Shown here piece by piece: positions 10,857 through 13,977 of a stretch of DNA of 58,218 nt. The stretch comes from Pseudohongiella sp. GTDB taxonomy: Bacteria; Pseudomonadota; Gammaproteobacteria; Pseudomonadales; Pseudohongiellaceae. Both the position numbers and the translations under genes were made by a program. Location of the stretch: contig JAUYSM010000100.1 of assembly GCA_030696315.1 (NCBI GenBank), positions 1-58,218 on the forward strand, in the 5' to 3' direction. The notes beneath the pieces are model-generated. The model was not told the DNA's origin, ran no database searches, and worked only from the letters and a program-made list of their open reading frames with translations. Numbering within the stretch: position 1 is the stretch's first letter; each line of letters starts with the position of its first letter.

Positions 10857-11501
10857 ATGCTGTCGGCAGGTTTGAGCCAGATCATCGAAGCCGGCATCAA
10901 TGGCTTGCTGCGACAAGATCCTCATTTACTGAGCAGCCTCAATCAGATAGCCGCAGGCAAAAGCCTCAGGCTGGTCTGCTCCCGGGCTGGCACCGGGGAA
11001 AACCAGCCAGCCTGGCAGTTAACAATCATCGTCACACCAGAAAAACTTCATGTCCACAGCAACTCCAGCGATGCCGTGGATGCCTGTATAACTGGCAGCG
11101 CTCGCGCATTGTCGGCGCTACTCTTCAGCGACGACCCGGCGGCAGCGCTTTATCATCCTGACATCGCGCTGTCTGGCGATGTGCATCTGATCCAGAAAAT
11201 CCACAAAACACTCAGTGCATCCGATACTCGGTGGGACGATTTACTGGCCCCCGTACTCAAACCGGTGCTGGGTGACCACGGCGTCTTTGCACTTTCAAAC
11301 TCGGTCAATTCAGGCATAGCCGCAGCCCGTAATGCCGGCCAGACATTTAAAATGGACATCCGGGATTACCTGCAAGAAGAATCCGGATTGTTGCCAACAC
11401 GCGCTGAAACAGTCTCGGCTAATAATCGTCTGGATGCACTGCGACTTCGAATCGATCGTTTGCAGGCGCGTATCGCGCTGCTCAAACAACCCAGGCTGTG
11501 A
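10857..11501 (+). CDS. ubiJ: Ubiquinone biosynthesis accessory factor UbiJ (SCP2 domain)
   Basis: A 214-residue protein starting MLSAGLSQIIEAGINGLLRQDP one base after the ubiE stop. The N-terminal SCP2-like lipid-binding domain (to about residue 110) includes the segment SARALSALLFSDDPAAAL and the SGDVHL motif. A helical region and a C-terminal coiled coil (LDALRLRIDRLQARIALLK) follow. UbiJ with UbiK helps hold hydrophobic ubiquinone intermediates in the soluble Ubi complex. The same frame is open upstream into ubiE, but the ATG at 10857 fits the family. ubiB, which normally follows in gammaproteobacteria, is not here; the bufferin operon takes its place. Confidence 0.87.
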   Translation: MLSAGLSQIIEAGINGLLRQDPHLLSSLNQIAAGKSLRLVCSRAGTGENQPAWQLTIIVTPEKLHVHSNSSDAVDACITGSARALSALLFSDDPAAALYHPDIALSGDVHLIQKIHKTLSASDTRWDDLLAPVLKPVLGDHGVFALSNSVNSGIAAARNAGQTFKMDIRDYLQEESGLLPTRAETVSANNRLDALRLRIDRLQARIALLKQPRL

Positions 11502-11767
11502 CAAATTGACGCAGTACCTTGTATTACGCTTTCAGGGTGGGATAATCCAACGCGAGGCGGGCGCCGTATCGAAAACAAAAAGTACTGACATCAGCAAAGG
11601 CATAAGACCTGAAACGGTCAGCAGTTTTGTTCAGCAAACATTCAGTCAGCCAGACACACAATAAAAGCCTGCATAATCCGGTCTTTTCATCATACCGGAG
11701 TCACCCAGGATCGATCACAATACGAGATCGTTCAAAAAGCTTAGTAAATGTTCAGGAGAGTAACCGC

Positions 11768-12289
11768 ATGAAACGTACCGATGGATTTAGTCTGGCAACT
11801 GCTGCAGCGGCATTGTTGATGTCCGGCACCAGTATGGCAACTCTCGACGTTAATCAGACCAACCCTGATGATCCCATCAAAATCAGTGTTTGCCAGAGTA
11901 TCGCGGCAGCCGGTCAAAGTGCCTGCAAAGGTTTTGGCAACGATGCGGGCGCAGGCGCAAACAGCTGCAGCGGCGTTGGTTTTGTGGCGGTCACCAGCGG
12001 TAATGGTGCGTTTTCAGCAGCACTTTGCCAGGTGCTGGGCGGCACACAAGCCGCCAGCCTGACGGCAAAACCTGATTTCACCTTAGGCGACACTGCCGTC
12101 AGCGTCACCTACTGCAACGACGTGTTCACCTGCGCAGGACTGAGCGCATGTAAAGGCAACTCCAATGCAGCGTGTGCCGGCAAAAACAGCTGCCACGGCA
12201 TCGGGTTTGTAGGTGTGTACTCAGGCAGCGAAGAATTGTCCAAATCATTGTGTGAAAAGCTGGGTGGCAGCGCACTGTCATCCCTTTAA
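11768..12289 (+). CDS. Bufferin-type Cys-rich precursor with two tandem repeats (BufA2-like)
   Basis: A 173-residue exported protein. An AGGAG at about 11754 precedes the ATG at 11768. The N-terminal signal peptide (about residues 1-24) ends GTSMA. The mature part holds two copies of one module. Repeat 1 has Cys 42, 53, 67, 87 and repeat 2 has Cys 116, 122, 128, 136, 142, 162. The last three shared cysteines have identical spacing in both repeats (14 then 20 residues). Each repeat contains SACKG, NSC-x-G-x-GFV and a final LC-x-x-LGG. The SACKG/KNSCHG motifs and the following DUF692-DUF2063 genes point to a bufferin-type metallophore precursor. Some of its cysteines are expected to become thiooxazole or related heterocycles that bind copper or other metals. 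Repeat 1 lacks two of the six cysteines, so the copies may not be equivalent. Confidence 0.8.
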   Translation: MKRTDGFSLATAAAALLMSGTSMATLDVNQTNPDDPIKISVCQSIAAAGQSACKGFGNDAGAGANSCSGVGFVAVTSGNGAFSAALCQVLGGTQAASLTAKPDFTLGDTAVSVTYCNDVFTCAGLSACKGNSNAACAGKNSCHGIGFVGVYSGSEELSKSLCEKLGGSALSSL

Positions 12290-12301
12290 CAGGATGTAAC
12301 C

Positions 12302-13162
12302 ATGCTGGGATTTGGCCTCGGACTGCGCAGCCCACACTATGACTACGTGCTGGAACACAAGCCCGCAGTTGACTGGTTTGAACTGATTACCGAGAACTAT
12401 CTCGCACCCGGCGGACGGCCTCGTGCCATTCTGCATAAAATCCGTGCACATTACCCCGTAGTGCTGCACGGATTGTCATTTAACATCGGCAGTAATGAAG
12501 CGCCCGATCTGCACTACCTTGCCCAGCTCAAAGCACTGATCAAAGAAGTTGAGCCCGCCTGGGTCTCTGATCACATCTGCTGGACAGGCTTGCATGGCAA
12601 AACCTCTCACGACCTGCTGCCCATTGCCTACAATGCTGAAACGCTGTCGCAAGTATCCGACAAGGTTTCTCAGATCCAGGACTATCTGCAGCAGACGGTG
12701 GTACTGGAAAACCCTTCCGTGTACCTGCAGTTCCGCTCGGCCAGCATGAGTGAAGCGGATTTTATCAATGCGCTGTGCGAGCGCACCGGTTGTCGTATCC
12801 TGCTGGACGTCAACAATGTCTATGTGAGCTGCTTTAATCTTGGCCAGGATCCGTATGCTCAGATCTCAGCGCTGAAACAGGATTGTGTACAGCAGTTTCA
12901 TCTGGCAGGGCATACGCACAACGGCAACCACATCATCGACACCCATGACCATCCGGTCAGCGATCCGGTCTGGGACCTGTACGCGCACGCGTGCCGGCAC
13001 TTCGGGCCTACTGCCACCTTGCTGGAGCGCGATGACCACATTCCGCCCTTCCCGGAACTGATGGCAGAGCTTGAAATGGCCCGACAGAAACAACACGAGG
13101 CTTTGTCCCGGCCGGCGACAATACCTCAGCAACAGCACCACCTCCAGGGATCCGTGGTGTGA
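12302..13162 (+). CDS. DUF692 multinuclear non-heme iron oxidase (MNIO, BufB-type)
   Basis: A 286-residue TIM-barrel protein of the DUF692 family. Conserved metal-binding positions are visible: H56 (VLHGLS), D90/H91 (VSDHICW), E136 (VLENPS), D169/N171 (LLDVNNV), H200/H204 (FHLAGH), D213/H215 (DTHDH) and E242 (LLERD). Family members use a di- or tri-iron centre and oxygen to convert Cys residues of a partner peptide into oxazolone/thioamide or thiooxazole groups. It lies 12 nt after the Cys-rich precursor and overlaps the DUF2063 gene by 4 nt, the usual precursor-enzyme-partner order. The substrate is inferred from context. Confidence 0.9.
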   Translation: MLGFGLGLRSPHYDYVLEHKPAVDWFELITENYLAPGGRPRAILHKIRAHYPVVLHGLSFNIGSNEAPDLHYLAQLKALIKEVEPAWVSDHICWTGLHGKTSHDLLPIAYNAETLSQVSDKVSQIQDYLQQTVVLENPSVYLQFRSASMSEADFINALCERTGCRILLDVNNVYVSCFNLGQDPYAQISALKQDCVQQFHLAGHTHNGNHIIDTHDHPVSDPVWDLYAHACRHFGPTATLLERDDHIPPFPELMAELEMARQKQHEALSRPATIPQQQHHLQGSVV

Positions 13163-13977
13163 ACTGGCAACAGGAGCAGCAGGCCTTCTGGGACTGGATG
13201 ACCAGACCGCAGGATCTGCGCGACAGCGCTCATGCTATTGATGCCTTGATGGCACCCCATCAAGCGCTCAGTCAGGTAGAAGCCGTCGCGATCTATAACA
13301 ACGCTTACCATCAACGCCTGATTCAAATTTCATCAGAGCTTTACCCGGTGCTCTATCACACGCTGGGCGATGAAGTTTATACCCGCCTCTGGCTGGAATA
13401 CATCGCTGCCTACCCGCCCAGACCAGGCCCGATGGGATTGCTGGGGGAGCATCTGCTGGTATTTGCCAGACAACATGCACAATTCGGGCAATTACCCGCT
13501 TTGCTGGATATTATTGAACTGGAAAGTCTGTTGATCAGCCTTTTTGACAAGGCGGATGAGCCCACTTTTACACGACCCATGTTGCAAGCCTTGGCGGTCG
13601 AGCACTGGCCAGTAATGCGTTTTCAAGCCAAACAGGACTGGGCCTTAATGCACAGCCGGTTTGATCTGGAAGGCTATTGGACGCTCATGCAGACGCATCT
13701 GGCCAACCCAACTGCGGTGCCCGGGGAGACCGGATTTTCAGTGCCGCTGCATGAACCCGCACAGTCGGTTCATTACCTGGTGCGCCGCGTGAATCACCGC
13801 ATGCAGTTTCAGCGCATCAACCCAGCCATGCAGGTGTTTTTGCACGGCATACAACTGCACTATCCATTTGCTGAACTGTGTGAGCAGCTGGAGGGCAATT
13901 TTCCGCAAGAAGACATTGCGCAGCTGAGCCTGACACTGCTGCTCAAAAGCATTGACTTGCAGCTGCTTTGCGCTTGA
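13159..13977 (+). CDS. DUF2063 substrate-recognition partner (BufC-type)
   Basis: A 272-residue protein starting at GTG inside the DUF692 stop (GTGA overlap). The N-terminal DUF2063 domain has the typical AIYNNAYHQRLIQISSELYPVLYHTLGDE stretch (about residues 43-72). The C-terminal half resembles the winged-helix-like part of BufC, with VHYLVRRVNHRMQFQRIN and a closing LLKSIDLQLL. In MNIO systems this partner recruits the precursor peptide to the oxidase. The 4-nt overlap implies tight translational coupling and a 1:1 complex. No DoxX-like BufD gene follows; the next gene is on the other strand. Confidence 0.87.
   Translation: MNWQQEQQAFWDWMTRPQDLRDSAHAIDALMAPHQALSQVEAVAIYNNAYHQRLIQISSELYPVLYHTLGDEVYTRLWLEYIAAYPPRPGPMGLLGEHLLVFARQHAQFGQLPALLDIIELESLLISLFDKADEPTFTRPMLQALAVEHWPVMRFQAKQDWALMHSRFDLEGYWTLMQTHLANPTAVPGETGFSVPLHEPAQSVHYLVRRVNHRMQFQRINPAMQVFLHGIQLHYPFAELCEQLEGNFPQEDIAQLSLTLLLKSIDLQLLCA

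Follow-up and report, generated by a model that had tools for sequence, protein, structure and literature searches.

Buf2-type bufferin precursors contain six cysteines in 90% of cases and twelve in the remainder, according to the available text of the published description (PMC12452194), in which one twelve-cysteine Buf2, exemplified by Cognaticolwellia, was modelled as duplicated domains. For Buf1, the same text describes a disulfide between the first and last cysteines and modification of the central cysteines, with preliminary results making the Buf1 signal peptide part of the recognition sequence for BufB–BufC; the chemistry of Buf2 itself is preliminary in print. A DoxX-like gene is counted there among the core genes of bufferin clusters. 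In the available part of a second study (PMC12668002), an Asp at the position equivalent to FonB residue 250 is reported for Cys-Lys (Buf2-type) MNIOs.

The locus described here lies in a 58,218-nucleotide stretch of a Pseudohongiella sp. contig (the window). Its initial annotation assumed that known bufferins have one cysteine-rich module, which is wrong, Buf2 with duplicated six-cysteine domains having been published (PMC12452194, available text); the two-module design is already known, and the locus does not stand as a new two-module type. What sets the locus apart is the unequal wear of its two modules.

A bufferin-type operon with a two-module precursor

The operon is of the bufferin type, as initially annotated: a BufA-like precursor gene is followed by an MNIO gene and a DUF2063 gene (Table 1). 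BufB scores 357.6 bits against the MNIO_BufB model NF050167, above its cut-off of 310, and BufC reaches 24 bits against the HvfC model, far under the cut-off of 142. The reported absence of a DoxX gene from the operon holds, an opposite-strand OsmC gene coming after bufC; the three DoxX matches in the genome are all on other contigs. The BufB position equivalent to FonB Phe250 is occupied by Asp in all 26 orthologs (motif ERDD), and the MNIOs linked to 54 canonical Buf2 loci carry Asp there in 37 cases and a different residue in 16, with 1 unread.

Table 1 Features of the bufABC locus (window coordinates)
Feature	Position	Strand	Basis
Inverted repeat TGTGACA-AAT-TGACGCA, candidate operator	11497..11513	+	Overlaps ubiJ stop codon
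Promoter-like footprint CTTGTA-N17-GATAATC	11518..11547	+	Conservation at buf loci
bufA-like precursor gene, two modules, 173 aa	11768..12289	+	Translation, BufA2 matches, module alignment
Probable Sec signal peptide, about residues 1–25	11768..11842	+	Sequence only
Module 1, residues 42–93, Cys 42, 53, 67, 87	11891..12046	+	Cysteine positions, module alignment
Module 2, residues 116–168, Cys 116, 122, 128, 136, 142, 162	12113..12271	+	Cysteine positions, module alignment
bufB, MNIO-family bufferin maturase, 286 aa	12302..13162	+	PF05114, 346.8 bits
bufC, DUF2063 partner protein, 272 aa	13159..13977	+	PF09836, 42 bits (cut-off 27.2)

The ten cysteines of the precursor are exactly where the initial annotation had placed them, four in the first repeat and six in the second, with Ala 47 and Gly 61 in the translation standing opposite Cys 122 and Cys 136. 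The other details on which it had based a duplication also proved accurate: cysteine spacings of 14 and then 20 residues recur in both repeats (53-67-87 and 128-142-162), as does each of the motifs SACKG, NSC-x-G-x-GFV and LC-x-x-LGG. The internal duplication is real, with 30 of 61 aligned columns identical between the modules and a module-against-module score of 145, compared with a mean of 32.6 and a maximum of 72 among 5000 shuffles (none as high). With the cysteines masked, the score of 113 still exceeds that of every one of 5000 shuffles (maximum 61; none as high), and the likeness therefore goes beyond the cysteine pattern. The BufA2 model (NCBIfam NF050166) matches each module separately in the genome scan, at 29.9 and 28.2 bits (E-values 2.0e-6 and 6.5e-6).

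The whole precursor scores 49.4 bits against BufA2 in two stretches, below the curated cut-off of 60, and carries one Cys-Lys motif (SACKG) per module, compared with up to four in canonical Buf2; both observations count against its assignment as Buf2-like, and together with the second module they separate it from single-module Buf2. Six cysteines, the number that BufA2 specifies, are present in module 2 (spacing 6,6,8,6,20) and not in module 1, which has four. The precursor otherwise shares with single-module Buf2 (NF050166) the C1–C5 spacing of 6,6,n,6, an A-T/V-A-A-A stretch in the probable signal peptide, the adjacent MNIO gene and, as described in print, a neighbouring DUF2063 gene. Its probable signal-peptide region contains a LATAAAALL stretch of canonical Buf2 appearance; A10, A13–A15 and L16 are invariant across 24 aligned precursor sequences. 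Canonical Buf2 examples have a C3–C4 spacing of 7 and a C5–C6 spacing of about 13, whereas the Pseudohongiella precursor has 8 and 20, and these longer spacings are shared by both of its modules.

A Pfam search with the whole precursor returned no family at E 1. Module 1 resembles Buf1 (DUF2282) in its four-cysteine layout of an outer and an inner pair, and the two systems have MNIO and DUF2063 partners in common; unlike in Buf1, no DUF2282 (PF10048) match in the Pseudohongiella genome rises above the cut-off of 22.4, the best (15.3 bits) lying in another place. The EGKCG precursors (oxazolin, fontiphorin and bulbicupramide), many cysteines of which are modified by MNIO and DUF2063 pairs in the available published accounts, are alike in this pairing, but the Pseudohongiella precursor is without the EGKCG motif and its BufB has Asp, not Phe, at FonB position 250.

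AlphaFold2 models, obtained from 24 sequences, were weak (mean pLDDT 50.9 and 64.8), which counts against the preferred reading set out below, and only the order of strands and helices was taken from them. The models share the order strand, loop, strand, helix, strand; C1 falls at the first strand and C6 within the helix. For a relative without the module 1 inner loop, the predicted structure still has the strand-strand-helix-strand frame, with the loop short. A profile search of solved structures gave no matches, and a Foldseek comparison of the better model with the PDB gave nothing better than E 0.3; the lack of structural matches also counts against the preferred reading.

Cysteine loss across 26 orthologs and the origin of the modules

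Orthologs were sought in 95 genomes, of which 27 matched; one match (G087) is a canonical single-module protein and was left out, giving 26 orthologs. All 15 genomes of the genus have one, as do all 10 of sister genus g5 and the single genome of g7; none of 33 other genomes of Pseudohongiellaceae does. A single MNIO gene per genome was detected in 15/15 genus members and in the 4/4 g5 and g7 genomes tested, and none in the 15 other family genomes of the MNIO search. The precursor of a further Pseudohongiella record (L063) is identical. In a record titled Rhodoferax sp. OV413 (L065), the operon has the same neighbours and a precursor that is 93% identical; the title looks like that of a misnamed metagenome bin.

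The inequality noted in the source genome (4+6 cysteines) is general. Across the 26 orthologs, module 1 keeps C1 in 26, C2 in 6, C3 in 18, C4 in none, C5 in 14 and C6 in 26, and module 2 keeps C1 in 26, C2 in 25, C3 in 25, C4 in 23, C5 in 26 and C6 in 26. None of the 26, from three Pseudohongiellaceae genera, is 6+6; the totals range from 5+6 (five genomes) to 2+4 (one genome). In the last of these (G008; L089, 6178–6588), module 2 is also partly lost, with four cysteines left in it and six in the whole precursor.

Eight of the 26 orthologs lack the inner loop of module 1, from C1 to the second strand. Mapped onto a tree of HslU, UbiE, BufB and BufC (G004 and G025 without HslU, G025 also without UbiE), its absence takes three events by both Dollo and Fitch parsimony. 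The nodes defining g5 and the loop-less group within it are firm (support 100 each), so the g5 loss is separate from the others unless the loop was regained, which may have happened by recombination with module 2. G020 is placed beside g5 (97) and G007, G008 and G009 together (71); three nodes bearing on the event count are weakly supported (35, 45, 71), which counts against the preferred reading. For single cysteines, Dollo parsimony gives three losses of C2, three of C3 and six of C5 in module 1, C4 being absent throughout, and one of C2, one of C3, three of C4 and none of C5 in module 2. The corresponding Fitch changes are one, three and three for C2, C3 and C5 of module 1, and one, one, three and none for C2 to C5 of module 2; as C5 of module 1 changes six times by one method and three by the other, and C2 three times and once, the count of point events is uncertain.

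Selection was estimated as dN/dS from summed pairwise counts, which are non-independent and come from sequences of high synonymous divergence. Module 1 has values of 0.04–0.07 where the loop is present, and module 2 of 0.01–0.06. Because purifying selection persists there, loop-bearing module 1 is not simply decaying, a point against the preferred reading. Among the five nearest relatives, dN/dS of the inner loop is 0.08 in module 1, and module 2 has zero nonsynonymous changes in its loop. The outer half of module 1 has values of 0.01–0.11 in four sets of relatives; in two of the four, the outer half of module 2 is the higher (0.15 versus 0.11, and 0.07 versus 0.05), which again counts against the preferred reading.

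For comparison, 54 canonical Buf2 loci were assembled from two order-wide scans (28 + 26), taking the best match above cut-off per genome. Two modules are present in 31 of them, all 6+6, and a single module in 23; as worn modules score low, this survey is biased towards intact ones. The 12-cysteine Buf2 of the available published text (PMC12452194) resembles the Pseudohongiella precursor in the duplication of a module inside one precursor, whereas the canonical two-module proteins (31/31 with 6+6) differ from the Pseudohongiellaceae lineage, which has (2–5)+(4–6) cysteines and a separate group of modules.

That grouping comes from a tree of 94 distinct short sequences, with weak inner support and 11 of the 26 orthologs, all loop-bearing. 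Pseudohongiellaceae modules lie apart from all canonical modules included (support 100); module 1 copies group together (99, unrooted) and module 2 copies form no group. Since the Pseudohongiellaceae modules form their own group, the duplication seems to be independent of the canonical one, and these sequences suggest that it probably took place within the lineage before the split of the three genera. Concerted evolution of the modules, instead of an independent duplication, may account for the same grouping.

Outside the family, a profile of Pseudohongiellaceae precursors matched three genomes out of 390 in the order, all at two-module Buf2 loci, and gave one weak match in 274 genomes across the class; no relative of the precursor was found in the viral contigs searched. 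A second asymmetric family was sought with a cysteine pattern in 20 stretches from the class scan (5 above cut-off and 15 weak). The pattern, which would miss worn modules, found reading frames in 6 of the stretches and none in 14: a canonical 12-cysteine protein (L094), four fusions to membrane domains (L095–L098) and a CKG-repeat protein (L104). The fusions place single Buf2 modules behind an integral membrane domain and resemble the MerC fusions described in the available text of PMC12452194. The sixth frame, at 1559–1903 of a weakly BufA2-matching stretch from another gammaproteobacterium, encodes a short, secreted-looking CKGKNG-repeat protein with 12 cysteines.

Syntenic locus and conserved promoter footprint

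The genes hslV-hslU-DUF971-ubiE-ubiJ precede bufABC in those fetched loci that reach that far. In sister genus g5, ubiB is the next gene after bufC at the two loci tested (L081, 8444–10084, and L087, 8142–9782; both above the UbiB cut-offs). Where family genera lack buf, ubiB directly follows ubiJ in three of five loci, a set that includes L203, L204, L206 and L207; at L207 the two genes are separated by another one, and at L205 no ubiB was found within the fetched stretch. In g5, therefore, bufABC lies inside the ubiEJ–ubiB group. The window itself has no ubiB match. The three genes form a bufferin-type operon of Pseudohongiella and two sister genera, and its inheritance is apparently vertical.

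Upstream of bufA, all 26 loci carry the promoter-like footprint, exactly or with a single base change, 52–221 bases before the start codon, and its spacer is 17 bases in every one though 12–22 were allowed. It has one match in the window and none in 100 shuffles of it; a general consensus promoter scan did not call it, and the claim rests on conservation. The candidate operator lies just before it. At all 26 orthologous loci, the best 17-mer upstream of the promoter agrees with 9–12 of the 12 consensus positions, and the repeat, close to TGYGNCA-N3-TGNCGCA, stands 3–4 bases before CTTG in 21 loci and 14 bases before it in 5. About ten bases correspond to one turn of the helix, and such a displacement of the inverted repeat is as expected of an activator site. 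The promoter and repeat patterns were found in none of the five loci of the family genera without buf.

With one mismatch allowed, the repeat is no rarer in the window than chance would give. In the source genome it occurs, with up to one mismatch, at 11 sites, that of bufA among them (14 hits when palindromic sites are counted on each strand, against 4 for a reversed control pattern), and some of these are about 70–165 bases upstream of genes. Among them are copC-copD (L194, 1592–2994), a gene like those for TonB copper receptors (L188, 1615–3018) and a MauG/MbnH-like gene (L198, 3–1412). CopC and the CopD that follows are both over the Pfam cut-offs and under the NCBIfam ones; the receptor, incomplete because the stretch ends within it, has as its best NCBIfam match a TonB-dependent copper receptor (72 bits, cut-off 472). 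At the MauG/MbnH-like di-haem gene, the repeat is followed after a five-base gap by a -35-like element and, after a 16-base spacer, by a -10-like one, as at bufA; MbnH itself has a link to copper. Other repeats fall within genes or next to genes that have no known connection with copper, for example those of a [2Fe-2S] subunit and an AhpC/TSA protein. These sites, a lead from one genome only, hint at a shared copper regulon.

Proposed division of labour between the modules

The reading preferred here, with fair though not full confidence, is that of a divergent, Buf2-like copper bufferin in which most of the metal binding would fall to the C-terminal module, the N-terminal one being on its way to a scaffold held by a disulfide. 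It is favoured by a BufB above cut-off with the Asp state, the DUF2063 partner, the synteny, the occurrence of orthologs throughout the genus and its two sister genera, the counts of outer and inner cysteines, the three loop losses, the frame that persists in the loop-less model, and the disulfide and central modifications published for Buf1. By analogy with published bufferins, BufB–BufC would turn inner cysteines into thiooxazoles while still in the cytoplasm, the signal peptide forming part of their recognition site; next would come Sec export and formation of the outer disulfides C42–C87 and C116–C162, giving a periplasmic product that would bind surplus copper by chelation. This order, modification before export, is proposed from the example of Buf1 and from preliminary results on Buf2 (PMC12452194, available text). 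Module 2 would be the main metal module. Module 1 retains its outer pair and is losing the modifiable inner cysteines, of which Cys 53 and Cys 67 are left in the source genome; in relatives the whole loop is gone.

The initial annotation had proposed that one chain could carry one modified and one unmodified site. In the source genome, two inner cysteines remain in module 1, one of them in a Cys-Lys motif, and their modification could be possible. In 8 of the 26 orthologs, an unmodified module 1 beside a modified module 2 would be forced, because module 1 has no inner cysteines there. A more specific and tentative proposal, for which the balance is somewhat unfavourable, is that the core domain of a RiPP was turned, by removal of its metal-binding loop in three lineages independently, into a modification-free, disulfide-held scaffold, with its twin in the same precursor serving as the chemical site.

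It is also conceivable, if unlikely, that in the source genome both modules are full metal sites, module 1 a Buf1-like four-cysteine site with an outer disulfide and both inner cysteines modified, and module 2 a six-cysteine one, their differences tuning affinity or capacity. The outer pair and two inner cysteines of module 1, an arrangement described for Buf1 in the available text of PMC12452194, would suit such a site, as would the retention of SACKG and the loop dN/dS of 0.08 in module 1 among the five near relatives. Against this, module 1 drops to three and two cysteines within the genus while the operon is kept, and the same five relatives have zero nonsynonymous changes in the inner loop of module 2.

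Less probable still is a module 1 that acts as a recognition or holding element for BufB–BufC, or in oligomerization, and not as a metal site, with inner cysteines that are leftovers. The eight orthologs in which a loop-free module 1 keeps its outer cysteines and flanks are compatible with such a role, as is the dN/dS of 0.01–0.11 for the outer half; N-terminal parts can matter, given the preliminary evidence for signal-peptide recognition in Buf1 (PMC12452194, available text). However, in 23 of the 54 canonical loci the same enzyme family is accompanied by a Buf2 with one module only, and a second module is therefore not needed for recognition in general. Chance likeness between cysteine- and glycine-rich sequences, or an assembly artefact, is refuted even for a precursor rich in Gly, Ala and Ser, by the 5000 shuffles (also with cysteines masked), the presence of the gene in 26 genomes and the separate BufA2 match of each module.

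No description of a bacterial family in which the first module alone is worn down step by step, leaving the two unequal, was found in the available text of the bufferin literature searched, which likewise does not address the purpose of the second module in two-module bufferins. The Pseudohongiellaceae locus provides a natural series at one syntenic position, in which module 1 has five, four, three or two cysteines and module 2 is nearly constant. Such a series makes it possible to test which cysteines are structural, which ones carry modifications, and whether both modules are needed or used by the MNIO complex. The series also makes a case, from sequence only, for different fates of outer and inner cysteines, in line with the reports on Buf1. 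If true, the scaffold reading would represent a natural separation of the bufferin fold from bufferin chemistry.
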